From positions 1-42,799 of the IMG/VR virus record IMGVR_UViG_3300026334_000002: 42,799 nt of DNA; one strand, given 5' to 3'. The stretch comes from a virus. Under the pieces are notes generated by a model that searched no databases, had not been told where the DNA came from, and was given only the letters and a program-made list of their open reading frames with translations. Position numbers and translations under genes: made by a program. Position 1 is the stretch's first letter. The number at the start of each line of letters is the position of its first letter. Positions 2,920 through 41,699 of this stretch are shown in pieces.

Positions 2920-5082
2920 CTAACTCGTCGGTGCTGTCCAGGTGTGGTAGAAGGTGATCAAGCGAATCGCGCCAGCGCCGGGATTCACGTTAGTGGTTAC
3001 GCGAACCGTAGTTGCGCTAGCCTGACGCGGACCCGCTGCGCCCGTCTGATCCGCCTGCACAAAGCAGATTCCTGTCGTTCCCGCGGTCAATACACTTTGT
3101 GCAGCACAGAAGCGCGCCGCGGTCGTGGAATCTCCGATCGTAAAATTGGCAGCCGTGGTGATCGTCGTGGTGATGCGATAGACGACTACATCAATGATGG
3201 CGTTTGCCGGAAGGCAGTTCAGGCCAGTGTTGGTGGTGGTTGCTCCCGTCGAAAGTGTGGTGGCAGCGAAAGTGGTCTCGCATGCTGATTTGTTCTGCTG
3301 TGCCATCGCGCCGAAGGGTGAAGGCGTGCCGGCATTGCCGCTGGAATCTACCCGGAAACTTTCATTCGTCGCAGCGGAGCCGCCGGTGTATACGCGGTAA
3401 GCTCCGGTCGAGCTGGGAACTTCTAAGACGTCGACGCCGTTGCCGTTCACCACCGTCACCCAGCTGTTATTGGCGATCGAGGGAGCAGTCAGGGCCGTGA
3501 TCGCGCAAGCAGAGCCGCAAACCCCCGACATGCCGCGGAGCACACCACCCGTCCATGATGCAAAGCCGCCGAGATCGGCGGTCGCGGTGCCGGACATCCC
3601 CATCGCTTCATGGTTGGCGCTTTCTAAACTACTCGCGAAGAAATTGCCCGGCGCGGAAGTTTGCGTCGCATCGATTTGGGTGTAGTTGCATCCTGGCCCA
3701 GCTCCACAGGTTCCGCCTATAATCTGGTCGCCGTGGCTGATAAGCGCGCATTTCTGAAAAGGTCCGGCGGGATCCCAACACGCGTTGTTCGTCAGTATAG
3801 TTTGCCAGGTTGTAGACGTCGAGCCGACTTTGGTCGGACCGCCTAGATTAATGCCGTACTGGTAATTCACCGCCTCGATCAGGTTGTTCGCGAGATAGTT
3901 GCCGACGCAGTTGAAGCTAGCATTACAGTTGAATTCGATGGCGCCGCCGGTCGCGAAGCCCGCGTTGTACCAGATCACATTGTCGGAAATCGTGATCGAG
4001 TTCACCCAGTTGAGCGCGTAGACGGCGCGCTGCACGCGGTCGAAAAAGTTGCGCTGGATCTTGGTGTTGTAGCCCTGAAAGATGGAGCTCACGGTGCCGT
4101 TCGAAGTGGTGGCGGTGGTGCCGAGCTGAACGGCGTCGTTGCAGGAGTAAATAGGGATGGTGTGATCAGAAGCGGTCGAGCCGAGTACCGCGTTCTCGTG
4201 AAAGACCAGACTGGTGTTGGTGGTGAGAAAGAACGTAGCGCAGTCCGTGTTGTGGTCGACGAAAGTGAGATGATCGATTTCCAGCTGCCCTTGGCCGAGG
4301 GTCACGATCTTGGCGTTGGCGGCGTTGAACTGCATATCGAGAATACATCCGCCGTTGGTCGCCGTGGTGAAGCCAGTCGACAAACTGTCGTTAGTGAGCA
4401 CGCCGATACCCTGGCCTGTGATGCGGATCGGCTTGTTTGCCGGAACCAGTCCGCCATTGTCAGGCCAGGTTCCGCCGTCGTTCGGAATTGTGATTTGCGC
4501 CGAGTTGAAAAGGTAGGTACCCGGCTTGTCGCAAATCAGCGTACCTCCGCCTGCGGTGAAGATGGTCGCCAGTGCGCTGTTCAGGGCAGCGGTGTTATCT
4601 ATCGCGTCGCCAGCGACGAATCCAGACGTGGAAAAAGCCAAACTGAAGGGACCGGCCCCACCGCCGCTGCCGCTCGCACTGCTCGGCGTGATCTGCGCAT
4701 TCACTGGTCCGGACGCAAAAGATGAAGCCCGCGCCCGCACACCGTTGTAACCGGCGACTGTGAAGGTAGTTGTTCCTGCTGTAGAGGAAGATGCGGTCGC
4801 GGCGGAGATCCAAGTCCTTCCCCCGTCGGCCGAGATCTCGAACTGGATCGTCGCCGTGAAAGTTCCGGAGAGAACAATCGAAGCCGTTCCCGCGGTCGAA
4901 GGCAGCTGCATCGAAATGCAGTTCGATGGGCTGGAATTCGTAGAGTCCATCACCAACGACGTGCAACTCGATCCAGCCGAGACGATCTGGCCATTGACCG
5001 GCGCAATTTGAGGAGCCGCTTGGGCGAGAGCGCAGACAGTGATGAAGGCCAACGCCAGCACAGCAATCAGGAGTTTTCGCAT
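2920..5082 (-). CDS. Beta-helix tailspike-like protein with Sec signal peptide
   Basis: 720 residues. Residues 1-23 form a classical signal peptide (MRKLLIAVLALAFITVC, ending around LAQAAP). After an N-terminal beta domain (about 25-140) and a Gly/Ser linker comes a DNTAALNSAL segment and a right-handed parallel beta-helix region typical of pectate-lyase-like tailspikes (GGGTLICDKPGTYLF, then repeated ITISDNVIWYN and NYLANNLIEAV turns, about 160-440). The C-terminal about 120 residues form a separate Thr/Ala-rich beta domain. The mature part has 18 cysteines, many closely paired, unusual for a virion protein assembled in the cytoplasm. Expected role: host surface recognition or glycan cleavage; active-site residues cannot be assigned. 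Lies between the gp4-like and gp10-like genes. Confidence 0.75.
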   Translation of the reverse strand: MRKLLIAVLALAFITVCALAQAAPQIAPVNGQIVSAGSSCTSLVMDSTNSSPSNCISMQLPSTAGTASIVLSGTFTATIQFEISADGGRTWISAATASSSTAGTTTFTVAGYNGVRARASSFASGPVNAQITPSSASGSGGGAGPFSLAFSTSGFVAGDAIDNTAALNSALATIFTAGGGTLICDKPGTYLFNSAQITIPNDGGTWPDNGGLVPANKPIRITGQGIGVLTNDSLSTGFTTATNGGCILDMQFNAANAKIVTLGQGQLEIDHLTFVDHNTDCATFFLTTNTSLVFHENAVLGSTASDHTIPIYSCNDAVQLGTTATTSNGTVSSIFQGYNTKIQRNFFDRVQRAVYALNWVNSITISDNVIWYNAGFATGGAIEFNCNASFNCVGNYLANNLIEAVNYQYGINLGGPTKVGSTSTTWQTILTNNACWDPAGPFQKCALISHGDQIIGGTCGAGPGCNYTQIDATQTSAPGNFFASSLESANHEAMGMSGTATADLGGFASWTGGVLRGMSGVCGSACAITALTAPSIANNSWVTVVNGNGVDVLEVPSSTGAYRVYTGGSAATNESFRVDSSGNAGTPSPFGAMAQQNKSACETTFAATTLSTGATTTNTGLNCLPANAIIDVVVYRITTTITTAANFTIGDSTTAARFCAAQSVLTAGTTGICFVQADQTGAAGPRQASATTVRVTTNVNPGAGAIRLITFYHTWTAPTS

Positions 5083-5087
5083 AGAAG

Positions 5088-5861
5088 CTACTCTCGCATT
5101 CCAGTGAGGAAGTTGAAGTCAGGACGGCCGCCGCGGCCGGACTGCGGCATGCCGGAGCTGGTCTCGATCCGCGGCGGGCCGTCGTTATTTCCTTGAATGA
5201 TCCGCATGGCACGGTTCCAGCTTTCGCGCAGTTCCATCGACACGGCTCGCTGGTAGGACGGCGCCAGGCGAACCGCCAGATCGAGCACGATCGCATCCCA
5301 GTAGCCCTGGACCAATCCCAGAGAGGTGTTCAGGTTGATGGCTTGCGCAAGCGAGTTCCAGATCTCGAGCCGGACCGGATTCGCGACATTGCAGATGGGG
5401 AAGAAGTTGCAGTTGCCGAGTGGGGAGGCCGCGTCGTAGTAAAGGTCGGTGACAATCGAGGACGTGAGCGACTTCAGCGGGTTCGCGGCCCACCAGTCAT
5501 CGTCGCGCATGTTCAGAAACGGAGAGTCGACCGGATTGGCGCTCGCGGCGTTCAGGATAAAAGACGCGGAGACGATCTTCACAGGGCGGATGGGCAGATT
5601 GAAGTCACCCTGCGGTCCGATGGTGTGCGGCGCGTGGTTGGCCTGCAGATTGAACTGCAGGAAGCTGTGGGAGTAGATCATCTCCATGCGCGCGTTGTGC
5701 TGATCGATGGCGCGCTGCAGCTTCTCGAGTACCCACGCGCCATCCTGCGGCGTGATGGGATCTTCCGGCGCGACGACGCCCAGCTCGAGGAGCGCGGCGC
5801 GGCCGATATCGCGGACCGTCGCCGAGATCGCCTGATTCGCGGGACTGAGTGTAGTTGTCAC
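5088..5861 (-). CDS. P22 gp4-like head-to-tail adaptor (tail accessory factor)
   Basis: 257 residues. The first 55 residues fit the gp4 fold signature (ALLELGVVAPEDPITPQDG, VLEKLQRAIDQHNARMEMIY). A central insert follows, then the conserved last helices (GYWDAIVLDLAVRLAPSY, ELRESWNRAMRIIQGNN) and a disordered Gly/Pro tail. This family forms the first ring below the portal. P22 gp4 is 166 residues; the extra length is the internal beta insert, as in many environmental podoviruses. Gene order (coat, small proteins, gp4-like, tailspike, gp10-like) supports the role. Identification rests on pattern and context. Confidence 0.7.
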   Translation of the reverse strand: MTTTLSPANQAISATVRDIGRAALLELGVVAPEDPITPQDGAWVLEKLQRAIDQHNARMEMIYSHSFLQFNLQANHAPHTIGPQGDFNLPIRPVKIVSASFILNAASANPVDSPFLNMRDDDWWAANPLKSLTSSIVTDLYYDAASPLGNCNFFPICNVANPVRLEIWNSLAQAINLNTSLGLVQGYWDAIVLDLAVRLAPSYQRAVSMELRESWNRAMRIIQGNNDGPPRIETSSGMPQSGRGGRPDFNFLTGMRE

Positions 5862-5864
5862 GAC

Positions 5865-6230
5865 TTAGGCTTGCTTCTTCGGCTCGCCGTCGTACAGGCT
5901 TTCGGTTTTCGCGGGCGGAGTCTCCGGGATGTAAGGCTCTTTCAGCCATCCCGACTTCAGTGCCTTCTCGAGCTCGGTCTTGTCTTTGACTGACATGGTC
6001 AGGTGTTCGGTGGGAACGACTTCTTCCTCGACTACTTCATGGCGCGCGTTGCGGTGTTCGATGGTGGTGAAAGCCTCGCGCGGGTGTTTGTAGACGATGC
6101 GCGGGAATTCCATGTGGGGGATCGATTTCACCGGCGGCTTGTGGGGATCGAGCGAGATCAAAATGCTCGTATCCTCGCCGGGCTTCGGCTTCGACTGCAT
6201 TCTCTCTTCGTCAATGGTGAAAGGTGACAT
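5865..6230 (-). CDS. Small charged protein of the head-tail region
   Basis: 121 residues, highly charged and probably partly disordered, with no signal or membrane segment. The C-terminal part (DKTELEKALKSGWLKEPYIP) resembles the A-x-x-x-G-[YW] ending of the neighbouring 95-residue protein at 6669-6956, so the two may be distantly related. Stop and next start are 4 bases apart. Function unknown; its place between the head decoration gene and the gp4-like adaptor suggests a minor virion or assembly role. Confidence 0.6.
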   Translation of the reverse strand: MSPFTIDEERMQSKPKPGEDTSILISLDPHKPPVKSIPHMEFPRIVYKHPREAFTTIEHRNARHEVVEEEVVPTEHLTMSVKDKTELEKALKSGWLKEPYIPETPPAKTESLYDGEPKKQA

Positions 6231-6255
6231 TTGCTTCTCCTGTTAACATCGCGGC

Positions 6256-6678
6256 ATGGATCGCCGCGGATTTCTGCAACTCTTGGGAGCCGGTGTCGCT
6301 GGCATCGCGCTGGAGCAGGCGATTCCGCTCGGAAGGGTGTGGAGCTTTCCGAAAGAGATCGTCCTGGCTCGCCCGACCACCGTGCGTTTCATCAAGGCTT
6401 GGGACATTTACGAACGCCGGAGGATGTGTCGCTTCGATGTGCTCTACGGCTGGAAGCCCCATGCGGTCGGAGGCATTGAGAACTACGGGGCCGTCGAAAT
6501 CTCCCGGCACTCGCAGATCCAAGATGCACTCGATTATCTTGCTCGGGAATTCGGAGTTGAAGCGCCGCCTGCAATGGTGTTCCAGCCACCAAATCCGGAC
6601 GACGACTGCCCGCAAGTCTACGGAGTGACTTTTGTGGACCGACCCGCCGCTCGCAGGGCATCGAAACGTTATTCCTGA
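6256..6678 (+). CDS. Tat-signal protein with a coat-protein-like motif, inserted antisense in the head operon
   Basis: 140 residues on the plus strand. It fills the gap between two minus-strand genes and overlaps the downstream one tail to tail by 10 bases. The N-terminus reads MDRRGFLQLLGAGVAGIALE, a twin-arginine export signal (R-R-x-F-L, then a Gly/Ala-rich hydrophobic core). Residues 45-66 (FIKAWD..Y..R....RFD..YGW) align without gaps to the last 40 residues of the coat protein (FVRAWD..Y..K...RFD..YGF), about half identical. The rest matches nothing I know. No good ribosome site precedes it. Possible roles are an exported regulator of capsid function or an assembly decoy; both are inference. 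Confidence 0.7.
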   Translation: MDRRGFLQLLGAGVAGIALEQAIPLGRVWSFPKEIVLARPTTVRFIKAWDIYERRRMCRFDVLYGWKPHAVGGIENYGAVEISRHSQIQDALDYLAREFGVEAPPAMVFQPPNPDDDCPQVYGVTFVDRPAARRASKRYS

Positions 6679-6956
6679 GCCGGAGCTGCCGTTGCTTCTT
6701 CCGTGACCGGCGCAACGTAATCGCCGTAGCCCTTCGCGATCGCGTCTTCTTCTTCCTCTTCGTTGTTCACGACCAAGAGCTCGGTCACTTTGCCGGTCGT
6801 CTTGTAGACATGCTTCGGATATTCGTTGTGCACGTGCAGCGTGAGCTTCACGCTGATCTCGCGCGGGGCGTGCGGATCTTTCTCTAACTCAGCCAGGGCA
6901 TCAGCGATGCGCTTCTGTTCCTCGAGTGAGATGGAAGCGCCGGGGATTGCTTTCAT
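6669..6956 (-). CDS. Small acidic head-region protein
   Basis: 95 residues: an N-terminal helix (SLEEQKRIADALAELEKD), a beta-rich middle (ISVKLTLHVHNEYPKHVYKT), an acidic run (NNEEEEEDAIAKGYGDY) and a disordered Ala/Pro tail. No known domain. It lies just after the terminator at 6983-7023, so it would be expressed less than the coat and decoration genes. Probably a minor structural or assembly protein. Confidence 0.6.
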   Translation of the reverse strand: MKAIPGASISLEEQKRIADALAELEKDPHAPREISVKLTLHVHNEYPKHVYKTTGKVTELLVVNNEEEEEDAIAKGYGDYVAPVTEEATAAPAQE

Positions 6957-7030: not shown

Positions 7031-8068
7031 TTAAAACAGCATGAAATAGGGAACCTTCGCCGTGGTGAACGTGGAAGGTGGTGTGATCACTGCGGCCGTT
7101 CCGAACGTCTGCGCGGTGATGGTTCCACCGAGCACGTTGTCGTTGGTCGAAGTGATCGCGTGACGGATGGTGTCGGTCGTACCATTCAGCCCATCGCAGG
7201 CGAAATAGCGCGCCGGACCTACGGCGTAGTATTTCGTCACGAAGTTCATCTTCTGGTACGTCGACGCGCCCGCTGTCGTGGTTCCCCCGGTGGCGGTGTT
7301 GGCCAGCACGTTGCCGCTCGAGTCGTAGAGGATGGCAAAGTGCTTGTTGGTCCCGACCGTGGTGCCATTGAGCGGAGCGAGTCCGGTCAGCAGCATACTG
7401 AACGAAAGATCGATTTCCGTGCAGTAGATTTCGGTCGCAGCCGCCGCGGCCGTGCCTGCGGTTTCAAGCGCGGTATAGGCGGCGCCGCCGGGATCCGGGA
7501 AACGGAAGCCGCTGTAGGTCAGCCGCTGGGTCTGCATGGCGTCGCCGTTGACCCACTGTCCGCCGATGCAATCCGAGACAACGCCTGTCGTGAATTGAAT
7601 GCGGGGCAGGAGGATCTCGTTCGACCGGGTGCAGGAGCCCGCCGGCACTGTCTGCACCTGGCCGGAGAAGCCTCCGTCCATCCACGGATTGTTTGCCGTG
7701 GGTACGACGAAGACTAGAGCGCCGGAAGCGTGCGAGGTGCCCGCCGTTGCGCCTGCTCCGCGCACCACGGTGATGGTTGTGCCGGAAACGCTGCGCACCT
7801 CCATCAGTTCGCGGTCGACGTAGAGCAGGGTCTGAGCGCCAGAGGTGGCAAAGCCCTGGATCAGGCCCGTGTTCGGGGTCGGGGCGTTGATGCCGGTGGC
7901 GGAGGCAACCACGACGATCGCCTGCTGGCCGGAAATCACGGTGCTGGATGCCGCAGATCCGCCAACAGCCGAGGACAGCGTGGTCAGGGGAAGGATGGTC
8001 TGGCCTAATGCGGAGCCGCAAAGGACCAGGCCCAGGAAGAAAGCAGCGATTTTCGTAAGTTTGTTCAT
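7031..8068 (-). CDS. Putative secreted head decoration protein (Sec signal peptide)
   Basis: 345 residues from the ATG at 8066-8068 with GGAG upstream. Residues 1-22 are a signal peptide (MNKLTKIAAFFLGLVLCGS, cleavage probably after ALG before QT). The mature part is beta-rich and Thr/Ala/Gly-rich, with TLLYVDRELMEVRSVSGTTI and RGAGATAGTSHASGALVFVV early on, like turns in phage head fibre and decoration proteins, and four cysteines. It is the first gene after the coat gene and is followed by a strong terminator, the place of a high-copy capsid protein. Why such a protein should be exported is unclear. A host-surface or lysogeny role is possible. Confidence 0.6.
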   Translation of the reverse strand: MNKLTKIAAFFLGLVLCGSALGQTILPLTTLSSAVGGSAASSTVISGQQAIVVVASATGINAPTPNTGLIQGFATSGAQTLLYVDRELMEVRSVSGTTITVVRGAGATAGTSHASGALVFVVPTANNPWMDGGFSGQVQTVPAGSCTRSNEILLPRIQFTTGVVSDCIGGQWVNGDAMQTQRLTYSGFRFPDPGGAAYTALETAGTAAAAATEIYCTEIDLSFSMLLTGLAPLNGTTVGTNKHFAILYDSSGNVLANTATGGTTTAGASTYQKMNFVTKYYAVGPARYFACDGLNGTTDTIRHAITSTNDNVLGGTITAQTFGTAAVITPPSTFTTAKVPYFMLF

Positions 8069-8123
8069 GGGTTTTTGTCTCCGAGGGTGTGACTTTGAAA
8101 TCACGCCTGGTCGGAAATCTCCT

Positions 8124-9422
8124 TTAGGCTCCCGCCACGGCCGAAACGCCGTAGTCGAGGTTCAGGTTGCCGAAGCCGTAGCACATATCGAAACGGTTCG
8201 TCATCTTGCGGTTGTACTGATCCCAAGCGCGGACGAAAGCGACCGATGCTCCGGTCTCTGGATCTTCAGCGCGCTCCGCTTTTTCAACGGCTTCCGGGTT
8301 TTCGAACTTGCCGAAGGCCTTGGCGAAGGCGTACTTCGAAAGGCCGAGCGAGATCGTTCCAGAAAGACCGCTGGGAGTGGTGGTGCCGGGCCAGAAGGTC
8401 AGCGCGGCTGCGTTTGCGGGCAATGCGTCGACGTTCTGGTATTGCGATCCGGGTCCAAAGATGGCCGGAGCGATTGCGATGGTGTCGTTGCCACCGGTGA
8501 GCGTGAAAGGCGCGCCGCCGACGTAGCTGAACTGCTTCAAACCCAGACCGTTGACCACGCGGGTCATTGGATTGACCGCATTCACCAGGGCGACGTTGAA
8601 CTTGTCGCCAGGGTTGATGACGTCGTTCAGTGTTCCGGTGATCACCAGCGATCCGCCGGACTGGCCAGCGCCGACGACCGTGGTTGCATGGGCAGCTGCA
8701 GTGCCGGCGGTGTGGCGTGCCAGTGAGTTCGAACGCACCCACTTCCAGCCCGCGGCATCGCCGATCACGCCCTTGCGGTACATATCGGAGATAGCCTTCT
8801 GCGGGTTGAACTGGGTGACGTTGTTCTTCACGTAGGAACGCATGAGCTGCGGTGACAGGCAGAGATAACGCTCTCCATCTGGCGGGCAGGCATAGGCGAA
8901 CAGGATCTGCTCGGCGTTCAGCGCGAAGTCGATGGTGGTCGAATCCGTCCCGAGTGTTCCGACGACGTTCGAGGCGTAGATGCGAGCCCAGTCCGCGGCG
9001 TCAGAATCGATCTTCTGCGCCAGGGCTTGGCCGGCGGGATAAAGGTAGCTCTCCTCGAGCTCCTTCTCGGAGCGTTCCATCTTCACCAGGCGCTCGTAAG
9101 AGTCCCAGCCGAAGTGCACGCCCTTGATACGGTCGAGGTTGACGGTCGTCACCAGGCGGTTGATGCCTTGTTCCTGGTATGCCAGGCCGTCAGTCACGAG
9201 CCAGCGCTGCGGATATTTGATTTGCGCTTGGGAGCCGATCGGAAAAGATTTTCCGAATTCCGATTCCCACTCGCTGTTGAACTGCGCGGCAACTTCGTAA
9301 CTGTTCTTGAAGAACCACAGGATCTTCATCGAGACCCAGTTGGTGGTTGCGAAGTTGTTGAGGAACTTGCCGAAGGCAGGGAAGAGCCATACCTGCAGCA
9401 AGAAAAGAAGAATTTTCTGCAC
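8124..9422 (-). CDS. Major capsid protein, P22 coat-like
   Basis: 432 residues, as long as P22 gp5 (430). The N-terminal helix runs into NSEWESEFGKSFPIGSQAQI, the conserved E-F-G-K-x-G entry to the HK97 fold. DADWARIYASN-type and EQILFAYACPPDGERYLCLS segments lie in the core, and the C-terminus is FVRAWDQYNRKMTNRFDMCYGF. It sits directly after the scaffold gene. The start is uncertain: GTG at 9422 is preceded by AACAGGA but gives an oddly hydrophobic start (MQKILLFLLQVWLFPAFG), while the ATG at residue 32 would cut into the first conserved helix. Forms the icosahedral shell. Confidence 0.85.
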   Translation of the reverse strand: MQKILLFLLQVWLFPAFGKFLNNFATTNWVSMKILWFFKNSYEVAAQFNSEWESEFGKSFPIGSQAQIKYPQRWLVTDGLAYQEQGINRLVTTVNLDRIKGVHFGWDSYERLVKMERSEKELEESYLYPAGQALAQKIDSDAADWARIYASNVVGTLGTDSTTIDFALNAEQILFAYACPPDGERYLCLSPQLMRSYVKNNVTQFNPQKAISDMYRKGVIGDAAGWKWVRSNSLARHTAGTAAAHATTVVGAGQSGGSLVITGTLNDVINPGDKFNVALVNAVNPMTRVVNGLGLKQFSYVGGAPFTLTGGNDTIAIAPAIFGPGSQYQNVDALPANAAALTFWPGTTTPSGLSGTISLGLSKYAFAKAFGKFENPEAVEKAERAEDPETGASVAFVRAWDQYNRKMTNRFDMCYGFGNLNLDYGVSAVAGA

Positions 9423-9444
9423 GGGATTTTGTCCTGTTTCTGGC

Positions 9445-10503
9445 CTAGCCTTTGCTGGCCCGCAGGCGGCGAGTCATTTCCGTATCGAAAGAGCGAAAAT
9501 CACCAGCCGCTGCCGCCGTCCGAAGCGGATCATCGGGAGCGGATCCACGTCCGCCGACTTCGGTGATCGGTTTCGGGGCGCGCGGTTTCGTTTGAGAAGC
9601 CGCCGTCTCAGAAGATCGTGAGGATTTATCGCCGTCGTCCTTGCCCGTGCCGCCGCTAGCTTTCGCGAGTTCAGCCTGCACCAGTTGCTCGGTGAGCATG
9701 ACCTTGCGCAGGGCGGCGGTGGGATTGGTACGGGCGGTAGCGATGAGATCCTTGAGCGCTTCGGGCTCGCCGAGTACATACATGAGATCCGCGAACACGG
9801 GCGAGTCGTTGATCACAGCCTTGACGGCGAAGGGAACGTGGTCGGCCATCAGGCCTTCCGACGCCGGCTTCACGCGGCTCTGATATTCGTCTTTCCCGTA
9901 TCGTTTCTCGGCTTCGGCGACCTTGGCGCTGAGGTCTTTGCTGGCTGCTTCCACCGCAAGTCGCTGACGTTCGGCTGCGATCGCTTCAGTGACTCGGCGA
10001 TCGGCTTCCCATTTCGCTTCATGCTTGGCAGCAGTGCGGACAAAGTCCTCATACGTCGCTTTCGGATTCGCTTTGAAGTACTCGGTTTCGTCGAGCGGCT
10101 TGTACTCTTCCTTCGCCGGTTGCGAGGCCGGCTTGGTGTCTCGCGTGTCGGAAGGTTTCGCCCGCTCCAGTGCGTCGAGACGCGACTTGAGCGTTTTGTT
10201 CTCGTCGAGGATTTCGCGAAAGCGGCGATCGGTATCCTGTTTGGTCTTCTGGTGGGGCTTCTGGTCCTTGTCGGTGGCCGAATCCGACGCGCTATCGGCG
10301 GTCTTCTGATCTTTTTGCGGGGCCGAGTCCGCTGCGGCTTTGTCTTTCTCTGCAGGGGCCGAGTCCTGCTTTGCCGGCGGTGTCTCTGGTTCTATGCGGA
10401 TGGGAGTACCGTGTTCATCCCAACCGTTGAAGTCGGTGACTGCTGGTGTTTCTGTTGTGGTGGCCGAGTCCACAATTGTCGCGGCAGATGCTGCTGTGCT
10501 CAT
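9445..10503 (-). CDS. Capsid scaffolding protein
   Basis: 352 residues, very hydrophilic with no cysteine. Long charged helices predict coiled coil (RFREILDENKTLKSRLDALE at about 95-115; HEAKWEADRRVTEAIAAERQ and on to about 200), and both ends are disordered (Ala/Lys/Asp-rich N-terminus; Ser/Lys/Pro-rich C-terminus with a basic final helix, TEMTRRLRASKG). Basic C-terminal helices bind coat protein in P22 scaffold. It lies between portal and coat genes, the usual place. The start has AAAGG close upstream. It should direct procapsid assembly and then leave the shell. Confidence 0.8.
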   Translation of the reverse strand: MSTAASAATIVDSATTTETPAVTDFNGWDEHGTPIRIEPETPPAKQDSAPAEKDKAAADSAPQKDQKTADSASDSATDKDQKPHQKTKQDTDRRFREILDENKTLKSRLDALERAKPSDTRDTKPASQPAKEEYKPLDETEYFKANPKATYEDFVRTAAKHEAKWEADRRVTEAIAAERQRLAVEAASKDLSAKVAEAEKRYGKDEYQSRVKPASEGLMADHVPFAVKAVINDSPVFADLMYVLGEPEALKDLIATARTNPTAALRKVMLTEQLVQAELAKASGGTGKDDGDKSSRSSETAASQTKPRAPKPITEVGGRGSAPDDPLRTAAAAGDFRSFDTEMTRRLRASKG

Positions 10504-16410: not shown

Positions 16411-16962
16411 TCAGGCGGATTTCCGCTGAGTCTGGCGCCAGAGGGTAGTTCGACTGGGTCCGCGGCGCGGATCGATCTTTCTCCCTGGGACGCGGCCTTC
16501 CGCTCGAGCCAGGGCCAGGCCGGCCTTGGTGCGCTCGGCGATCACGTTGCGCTCGAACTCGGCGAAGACGGCGAGAACTCCAAAGATCAGTTTCCCCATC
16601 GAGGTCGAGAGATCAAAGTTGTCTTTCAGGGAAACGAAGGCGACGTCGGCATCGCGCAGCGCGGCGATCAGATTGTGCAGATCCATCACCGATCGGCCGA
16701 AGCGATCGAGACGCCACACGACGACGGCGTCGATGTCACGCAGGCCTTTGGTTGCATCGCGCATCATCTTCTGCAGCTGGGGACGGTTCGCGTTCTTGCC
16801 GCTGAGCCGCTCGACGTATTCGAAGGCTACGATGTGCCGATTCGATCGACACCACTCGCGCAACTCGCGCAGCTGTACTTCGGGATTCTGTTCTTTTGCC
16901 TGGATGTCGGCGAGCTGGCCGCGCTGGGGTTTCGAGACGCGGGCGTAGAGGGCGACTTTCAT
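16411..16962 (-). CDS. Serine recombinase (resolvase/invertase family)
   Basis: 183 residues from ATG 16962, which overlaps the preceding stop as ATGA. Catalytic N-domain: MKVALYARVS with Ser10 as nucleophile and Arg8; VVVWRLDRFGRSVMDL for the conserved arginines; the long dimer helix with FAEFERNVIAERTKAGLALA. Small serine recombinases cut two sites as a tetramer. The C-terminus after GRVPGRK is only about 23 residues, so the DNA-binding helix-turn-helix appears truncated or very divergent (PSRTTLWRQ resembles only the last helix). Could act as integrase substitute, dimer resolvase or tail-gene invertase; no inverted segment was identified. Confidence 0.85.
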   Translation of the reverse strand: MKVALYARVSKPQRGQLADIQAKEQNPEVQLRELREWCRSNRHIVAFEYVERLSGKNANRPQLQKMMRDATKGLRDIDAVVVWRLDRFGRSVMDLHNLIAALRDADVAFVSLKDNFDLSTSMGKLIFGVLAVFAEFERNVIAERTKAGLALARAEGRVPGRKIDPRRGPSRTTLWRQTQRKSA

Positions 16963-17162
16963 GCAGCGATGCGCTTCCGTCCCATCGTTATACTCCGGCT
17001 TCTCTGCCAGCGCCTCAGCCAGTAGCCGGCCGCCCCGATCACGTAGACGGGATCGGCGGTGCGCCGCAACCTGGCGAGCATTGCGAGTTCGGCCTGGCGG
17101 ACCTGGAGCTCGGCCTGACGGGCCATCTTCAGTCGGTCGCGTTCGTATTGCTCGCGGGTCAT
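16959..17162 (-). CDS. Small basic helical protein upstream of the recombinase
   Basis: 67 residues from the ATG at 17162 (ATGA overlaps at both ends). An N-terminal coiled-coil helix (REQYERDRLKMARQAELQVR, QAELAMLARLRR) is followed by a short hydrophobic stretch with Arg/Trp (VYVIGAAGYWLRRWQRSRS). Translational coupling to the recombinase suggests a linked job, for example an accessory DNA-binding or membrane-associated protein. No family recognised. Confidence 0.6.
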   Translation of the reverse strand: MTREQYERDRLKMARQAELQVRQAELAMLARLRRTADPVYVIGAAGYWLRRWQRSRSITMGRKRIAA

Positions 17163-17461
17163 CGCAAGAGCCGATACACCCAGCGGACAATCTCCGGAAG
17201 TCTTGCCGCTGCCGCGGACATCAAGACCAGGGCCATTCCACGCCAAAATCGCAACGTCTCCATCCGCCGGATGTGCGCCCACTGGTAGTTGTCGGAGCGC
17301 AGCAACATTTCCGGTGAGTAGCGGCCTTCGTACTGCTTGGTGCGATCGATCTTGCGGTAGGTCCCAATCCGTTTCGCTCGTTCCAACTCGTTTTCGCGGA
17401 GCCCGTTCATGGCGATGTCGTAGAGAAAATCAGTGGCAGAGTTTATGTCCGGGGCGGGCAT
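17159..17461 (-). CDS. Hypothetical protein with C-terminal membrane helix
   Basis: 100 residues. The N-terminus is polar and helical (DINSATDFLYDIAMNGLREN, ELERAKRIGTYRKIDRTKQY). The C-terminus has one likely membrane segment (FWRGMALVLMSAAAARLPEI) and a short basic end. Joined to its neighbours by ATGA at 17159-17162 and by a 19-base overlap upstream. Function unknown. Confidence 0.55.
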   Translation of the reverse strand: MPAPDINSATDFLYDIAMNGLRENELERAKRIGTYRKIDRTKQYEGRYSPEMLLRSDNYQWAHIRRMETLRFWRGMALVLMSAAAARLPEIVRWVYRLLR

Positions 17462-40811: not shown

Positions 40812-41699
40812 TTATCCGTATCCTGCTGCCGCCGTCGCGGCGCCACCATCGCTGCCACCGCCCCACGTTCCGCTGCCGCCACCACCACCGCCGCCGAACA
40901 TCTGCTGCATAAGCAACATCTGCGTCAGATTGTTGGTCATGCCGCCGAAGGCGCCACTCCAGGCATTCGCGCCGCCGACGTATCCAGACGCTCTCGCCGC
41001 GGCTGCATTTTGGTAGTCCTGGCCGATCTGCGCGCCGGAGGTGAGGTTAATGTTTCCGATGTTGCTTGCGGCTTGCTGGCCTTCGCTTCCAAGCGTCGTC
41101 GCCGCGGTCTGCCCGATGCCGGCAGTAGCTGCCAGGCGATTGAAGGTGTTGGTCTGGTTGTTCTCGAAGATTCCATAGCGCTGGTTGTACTGCTGTAGAG
41201 CGCGGTTATAAACGTTCGAGTAGTTGGTGGTGGCGGAGTTCTGCGCGTAGTTGTTCAGCGCTTCAAGCGTGTTGCCGGAAAGCAGCGATCCGCGCGCACC
41301 GGCTGAGTTCTGCAGCGCTTCTTCGCCTTGCTGCTCCGCGAACTTGTAGCCAGGCTCGTTCTGCGCTTGCTCAAGCGTCGGGGCCTGAAATTGTTCCGTC
41401 CAGGGAGTAAGCAGGCCTTTGCCGGGAGTGTTGGTGAGATTTTGGAGATTGAAAAGCCCTTCCTTGCCCGCCGTCAGCCACGGCGCCATATTCTGCTGCT
41501 GCTTTTCCCACTCCTGCTTCTGAAAATCAAGAGAGGACTGCGCGTCTTCGTGCTGCAGTTCCGCCGCTGATTGCGCGGCGCTGGCTTGCGCCGAGGCCGC
41601 TTTTCCGGCAGCGTGAGCCGAGATCGCCGCGCCGCCAACAGAGCCAGCGGCCGCGGCGGCGGCGGCAACTGCCAGAGCTACACCAGTTGCAATTGGCAT
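40812..41699 (-). CDS. DNA transfer/ejection protein
   Basis: 295 residues, no cysteine. N-terminal hydrophobic Ala/Gly segment (TGVALAVAAAAAAAGSVGGA), then HAAGKAASAQASAAQSAAEL, SSLDFQKQEWEKQQQNMAPW, GKEGLFNLQNL, AARGSLLSGNTLEALNNYAQ-like core and a Gly-rich end. The order A-H-A-A-G-K-A-A, L-x-F-Q-K-x-x-W and A-P-W-x-x-A-G-x-x-x-L is common in podovirus internal proteins that enter the host with the DNA. The allele-A copy starts at 1-369. Confidence 0.7.
   Translation of the reverse strand: MPIATGVALAVAAAAAAAGSVGGAAISAHAAGKAASAQASAAQSAAELQHEDAQSSLDFQKQEWEKQQQNMAPWLTAGKEGLFNLQNLTNTPGKGLLTPWTEQFQAPTLEQAQNEPGYKFAEQQGEEALQNSAGARGSLLSGNTLEALNNYAQNSATTNYSNVYNRALQQYNQRYGIFENNQTNTFNRLAATAGIGQTAATTLGSEGQQAASNIGNINLTSGAQIGQDYQNAAAARASGYVGGANAWSGAFGGMTNNLTQMLLMQQMFGGGGGGGSGTWGGGSDGGAATAAAGYG

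Follow-up and report, generated by a model that had tools for sequence, protein, structure and literature searches.

A phage gene family in which a Tat-type leader precedes modules akin to head proteins of the same phage

Introduction

Bacterial hosts sense phage capsids through systems such as Lit/Gol and CapRel, and even a short coat peptide (Gol) triggers defence (PMC9712102). Capsid sensing by a bacterial defence has also been reported for Sau-Thoeris (PMC11312562). Fv1 and enJSRV Gag are endogenous gag-derived restriction factors (PMC6361761), and P22 SieA is an example of a superinfection-exclusion gene (PMC10883804).

Here, we describe a phage gene family in which a Tat-type leader precedes a body of modules akin to head proteins of the same phage, most often its coat protein. 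From one member to another, these modules have been exchanged, duplicated or put in a different order. The starting point was a gene at positions 6256-6678 (+) of the IMG/VR record IMGVR_UViG_3300026334_000002, the whole 42,799-nt stretch of which is referred to as the window. The family differs from Lit/Gol, CapRel and Sau-Thoeris, which are host systems and their triggers. With phage morons and superinfection-exclusion genes such as P22 SieA it shares a promoter-like box of its own, an antisense position in a structural operon, occurrence in some relatives only and apparent targeting to the membrane or for export; to our knowledge, none of the morons and superinfection-exclusion genes consists of segments taken from virion proteins of the phage that carries it. 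With Fv1 and enJSRV Gag it may share the use of a capsid-derived protein, encoded as a separate gene, that acts on related viruses, but those are host genes of retroviral origin, larger and devoid of an export leader or permuted fragments.

The two parts of the encoded proteins also have known counterparts. The leaders resemble those of TIGR01409 Tat proteins in the invariant RR, the RRxFL consensus and a moderately hydrophobic h-region, and differ from them in that the h-region is followed by a long conserved sequence (IPLGRVWSFPKEIVI or LDPERLLWVPGxKTIFIP), in that AxA is mostly absent in the first of the two leader families (leader 1), and in that no recognised enzyme domain follows. The bodies align in frame to segments of the P22-type coat (PF11651; CUS-3, Sf6, P22 gp5), namely the N-arm, the E-loop strand, the start of the spine helix, and the middle and C-terminal strands; unlike that protein, they are made up only of pieces (roughly 17-80 residues each), which in some members are permuted or stem from two proteins and which stand behind an export-type leader, and they cannot form the coat fold.

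Results

The window gene and its surroundings

The major coat protein gene of the window (8124-9422, -) was assigned to the P22 type by PF11651 (7e-17), phrog_283 (1.7e-49) and its fold. An AlphaFold model built from a 44-sequence alignment had a pLDDT of 81 (36 for the first model) and matched the CUS-3, Sf6 and P22 coats (8skg, E 1.1e-23), with a TM-score of about 0.7. The same operon contains a gp4-like connector gene (K000; 5088-5861, -), recognised by a phrog_12985/head-tail adaptor Ad3 match and synteny, the gene K070 (5865-6230, -), placed by synteny and divergent from the leader gene, and a gene called next to the leader gene and convergent with it (6669-6956, -), the 3' end of which is overlapped by the last 10 nt of 6256-6678. 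The region is G+C-rich and contains many long spurious ORFs.

The leader gene encodes 140 amino acids starting with MDRRGFLQLLGAGVAGIALEQAIPLGRVWSFPKEIVLA. Residues 1-38 (6256-6369) form the Tat-type leader that is common to all relatives, residues 42-66 (6379-6453) form a coat-like module, and the remainder with the stop codon (6454-6678) matched no family and has no identified source. The RRxF motif is present in the leader, and the protein scored 17.3 against the NCBIfam TIGR01409 cut-off of 16.7, so that by motif and NCBIfam cut-off the leader is a predicted Tat signal; Pfam PF10518 remained under its cut-off. The module aligned without gaps to coat residues 393-417 (8172-8246, -), with 12 of 25 residues identical and 18 of 25 positive (pairwise BLASTP, E 9e-7), and a coat profile of 37 sequences raised the match to E 1.5e-8. 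In a six-frame search of the whole 42.8-kb record, the only other match was the coat C-terminus itself (8172-8249, E 8.6e-5). PF11651 was not matched by the window protein in Pfam, and the best leader-gene member scanned against it reached 10.1 bits (cut-off, 24) with alignments to short pieces only; by the Pfam criterion, the body is not a coat protein. These results agree with a sequence-only reading of the window, in which a plus-strand gene amid minus-strand head genes, an N-terminal Tat signal and an ungapped likeness to the coat C-terminus had been noted, and the likeness persisted against coat homologues.

Several other genes of the window were recorded. Directly after the coat gene lies 7031-8104 (-), a member of a family (K003) found in 36 records, with a Sec-type signal peptide (e.g. 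MKKTLKIAAFLLSLALGGSAFGQ) that is present in most members with a readable start; an exported-type protein beside the coat in a head operon is odd. A further head-operon protein of 720 aa (2920-5082, -) also starts with a Sec-type signal (MRKLLIAVLALAFITVCALAQA), a feature found in many members of its family. The two ends of the record (1-423 and 40812-41699, -) each encode an ejection-type protein; the two are closely similar and may be neighbouring paralogues in a circularly permuted record. A serine recombinase (16411-17190, -; phrog_125 DNA invertase, 1.7e-49) is encoded near the terminase gene; several relatives carry a short tyrosine recombinase at that place, and tyrosine recombinases were found in 17 of 28 larger records. 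The recombinases are compatible with a temperate life.

Genomic place and expression signal

All 51 cases of the leader-1 family that could be judged are antisense to head genes. The commonest site is convergent with the 3' end of the gp4-like gene, and the others are at several different junctions. In the window, TAACAT (6244-6249, +), a -10 box of the TANNNT type as in leaderless-type promoters, starts 12 nt before the start codon, and of about 58 leader genes, 28 have the box at exactly this distance and 7 have it at 13 nt. A -10 box at such a position has been reported for leaderless genes, which are found in Acidobacteria among others (PMC3160421); an acidobacterial host, suggested by this promoter type, is only a guess. 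A sigma-70 consensus pair was looked for at the window gene and none was found. Downstream of the gene are two terminator-like sites on the plus strand, where 0.8 would be expected by chance on both strands.

The leader gene was not found in L081, the record with the closest coat relative (94% identical coat). At the corresponding site, this record carries another antisense gene (9395-9976, -) for a 193-aa protein with a Sec-type signal, and the site is probably a hotspot for exported accessory genes.

A common leader with differing bodies

Scanning of IMG/VR with the window protein yielded 16 contigs, with the likeness mainly in the first ~38 residues, and the pattern IP[LF]xRVWSFP yielded 53 contigs; 58 unique sequences were gathered. 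The 57 phage records contained 60 leader ORFs with 56 unique bodies of usable length. The leader frame was kept in these relatives, and the leader of ~38 residues was their only common part, the bodies being different and carrying different head-protein pieces. RRxF occurred at a fixed spacing in all 48 unique leader-1 sequences, with RR absent from the search pattern.

The clearest sign of body swapping is the pair G054 and G032, whose leaders are 97% identical and whose bodies are unrelated: that of G054 corresponds to the coat N-arm, and that of G032 to coat positions 36-71 with a short match near 250-269. In the sister pair G037 and G028, all six leader differences of one copy fall at third codon positions. 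Tandem or repeated copies were present in six records (G003, G014, G016, G028, G036 and G037), with one end of the coat in one tandem copy of G014 and the other end in its partner. In G052, a truncated copy lies upstream.

The whole leader-plus-body protein was not named by any of the family libraries scanned (PHROGs, NCBIfam, Pfam, PADLOC). No match to PADLOC defence models was obtained for three members, and the leader gene was not found in the cultured phages and GTDB genomes searched.

Bodies as pieces of head proteins

The ORFs of the 57 phage records were grouped into 78 families, against which the bodies were scanned at a domain E<0.01. A family was matched by 28 of the 56 unique bodies: coat in 22, portal in 2, head-closure Hc3 in 2, gp4-like connector in 2 and an ejection-type protein in 1. 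The other 73 families gave no body match at this threshold, and none of 56 reversed or 224 shuffled bodies matched any family. Half of the bodies have no recognisable source. The coat makes up about 3% of the genome, yet it is the source in 22 of 56 bodies.

The coat pieces of the members correspond to the N-arm, the E-loop strand, the start of the spine helix, the 'GDxFSIxxVN' strand and the C-terminus. They cluster in the N-arm, the E-loop, the spine-helix start and the C-terminal strands and avoid coat positions 160-220, although conservation along the coat is flat. Besides the window gene, the strongest cases are G006, whose piece corresponds to coat 84-121 (E 4e-11, with 62% identity to the own coat in a stretch of 39 residues), G020 (coat 4-58, 1e-10) and G007 (coat 34-61). 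Pieces are also combined: G017 joins ejection and portal pieces, copy 1 of G036 has coat 101-154 with a weak portal match (0.015), and G050/G053 have a permuted order, with coat 100-119 ahead of coat 24-59. Of the sequence-only reading, a Tat-leader antisense protein with a body resembling the coat C-terminus held for the window gene, but the likeness of the family is not limited to that end of the coat. As other members carry other coat regions or pieces of other head proteins, a reading that concerns the coat C-terminus or a receptor alone is unlikely. As putative functions, the sequence-only reading had named binding to the coat, binding to a receptor and protection of the membrane.

The idea of a common tail behind the piece from the coat C-terminus was rejected, the tails of four such bodies being unrelated. 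The bodies in G011, G032, G042 and G052 start with a GFDPA-like stretch that by eye resembles a terminase nuclease motif; TerL nuclease pieces (GFDPASG...) are not claimed, because a motif profile scored controls equally high. Small head-operon proteins of the K032 family (e.g. G027 5985-6410, +) have a motif, AEKYLAPAVIELE, like the coat spine-helix start, and may be an alternative source of some bodies. Coat sequence is reused without a leader as well. In three records (L010:7448-7972, L215:4837-5349 and L217:3950-4492, all -), proteins of about 175 residues that have no leader end with a segment from the C-terminus of the coat (E values between 5e-8 and 8e-5), and L005:7150-7536 (+), antisense to the head operon and without a recognisable leader, combines coat N-arm and C-terminal pieces (E 1e-4).

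Reading frame, divergence and likeness to the own coat

The DNA after each leader was translated in six frames and searched for coat matches at E<0.01. All matches, from 21 genes, were in the frame of the leader, and none was in the other five; what was hit in the other frames was mostly the convergent gp4-like gene, which overlaps in antisense, and its shadow frames. The pieces were 32-62% identical to the own coat in amino acids, and third-position identity was 0.14-0.64 (average about 0.36; 11 comparisons). The window module, at 0.64 over 25 codons, is less diverged than the others. Silent sites have mostly diverged and the peptide likeness is kept; at the DNA level most pieces are thus of old date, and it is the peptide that persists. 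The frame test and the silent-site divergence speak against random capture of DNA from the neighbourhood.

Modules also resemble each other between bodies, as VGTAIRIRLPQRFIIRDYIGDFSQP in G032 does its match in G007 (E 7e-14), and therefore they have been passed on within the family besides coming from coats. The likeness to coats is thus partly descent within the family and not a fresh matching to each coat. When each piece was compared with the coats, the own coat stood at a mean quantile of 0.73 against 0.50 +- 0.06 for random (25 pieces; 0 of 2000 permutations; uncorrected for shared ancestry). In four phages with divergent coats (G019, G044, L275 and L278), the own coat was the best match of all. 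In G030, which has a coat of another family, the body matched the own coat at 2.7e-6, and PHROGs independently assigned this body (L190) to the major head protein (E 0.0055), its one notable match in the set. G016 has yet another candidate coat, to which two weak permuted matches (E 0.09 and 0.16) are suggestive only.

A second leader family

A second pattern was based on DPERLLWVP, which we take to be a stretch of Tat-leader proteins in viromes, and retrieved 26 contigs. RRx[FLV] was present in all 21 leader-2 sequences, again with RR absent from the search pattern. AxA occurred in the tested stretch after the h-region in 17 of 21 leader-2 sequences and in 7 of 48 leader-1 sequences. The coat profile was matched by 4 of 24 unique leader-2 bodies at E<1e-8 and by none of 120 controls; L275 matched its own coat over 63 residues (5.8e-10), L278 its own coat (1.5e-11), and L288 (3.5e-9) and L276 the coat profile. 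With the reversed and shuffled controls at zero, chance likeness was ruled out for both leader families. Leader-2 genes lie on the strand of the coat in the loci that show both.

A tblastn search of cultured phages with one leader-2 protein returned 29 records, in which the matches lay at coat or major head genes (a few hypothetical), and the leader gene was not found in these records. In an unbiased scan of 42,992 small ORFs, coat pieces turned up in about 40, the majority of which have a leader, and new leader variants were seen in L251, L272 and L273; L272, a variant of leader 2, has coat pieces in permuted order.

Discussion

The architecture as described here is very probable; genes made of permuted own-virion pieces behind an export signal were not described in the family libraries or the open-access literature searched. 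For the function of the family, a decoy mechanism is tentatively proposed. The gene would be an accessory gene ('moron') with expression of its own, apart from the late operon, and its leader would direct the product to the membrane or into the periplasm. At that place, the capsid-like module would stand in for the virion protein and tie up whatever recognises or binds that segment, the likeliest target being host factors that sense or attack capsid or head proteins. A decoy is plausible because bacterial defences respond to capsid proteins and even to a short peptide of the coat; it is favoured for this reason and because it needs mimicry of the own coat. The open-access literature searched contained no description of a phage decoy assembled from parts of the coat. 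The decoy mechanism taken separately is, on these sequence comparisons, rather more doubtful than probable. Weighed jointly with the architecture it falls just short of an even chance, and a broader statement, that a modular shuffling family places capsid, portal and connector pieces behind an export leader as mimics that would block recognition or use of those proteins, is possible at a slightly lower level.

The export leader is the weak point of the decoy, and equally of interference with assembly, because the known capsid sensors and head assembly are cytoplasmic. The Tat pathway exports folded proteins, and fragments of 25-50 residues may fail to fold, which counts against an exported decoy. 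A Tat precursor held at the cytoplasmic face of the membrane would reconcile the leader with cytoplasmic targets, but this is speculation. The scarcity of AxA in leader 1 and the bodies without a source also count against a decoy, as do the likeness of body modules to each other and the less diverged third positions of the window's own module.

The main rival is dominant-negative interference, in which membrane-held or exported pieces would poison the assembly or genome entry of co-infecting or superinfecting relatives. It has an analogue in the gag-derived restriction factors Fv1 and enJSRV Gag (PMC6361761). The sources (coat, portal, connector, head-closure and ejection proteins) are all partners in assembly or entry, the avoidance of coat 160-220 under flat conservation would suit it, and an antisense gene with its own promoter fits expression outside the late operon. 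However, the producer's own assembly would suffer too, head assembly takes place in the cytoplasm where the leader suggests export, and a likeness to the own coat would not single out rival phages; we consider this explanation unlikely. Still less probable is that only the leader or the transcript is functional and the body is a passenger, any soluble in-frame piece from the neighbouring head genes. The leader is indeed far more conserved than the body, the sources are neighbours in the head operon and half of the bodies have none that is recognisable; on the other hand, the coat matches are all sense and in frame, the peptide likeness outlasts silent-site divergence, the pieces track the own coat, and the coat is used out of proportion to its share of the genome.

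It is quite improbable that the exported pieces serve as periplasmic placeholders, which would hold the phage's exported virion-associated proteins (e.g. 7031-8104) until lysis. The gene after the coat has a Sec-type signal in most of the 36 records, and some head-operon products are therefore probably exported; but portal, connector and internal coat segments, which an exported neighbour would not contact, are used as well, and binding of the module to that neighbour is conjecture in this explanation. Chance resemblance or an unused shadow frame might be suspected in a G+C-rich region full of long spurious ORFs, and it is hardly credible given a leader kept in dozens of contigs, the promoter box, the controls at zero and the second leader family.

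Two leader families show the pattern, which tracks the coat of the phage concerned even where coat families differ, and proteins now called hypothetical become candidates with a testable function. If the decoy mechanism is true, this would be a virus-encoded, protein-level decoy system with a logic like that of gag-derived restriction factors. Should the pieces be mimics, they would show which capsid segments face recognition pressure in nature and offer direct access to capsid-sensing defences yet to be found or to phage-phage competition.
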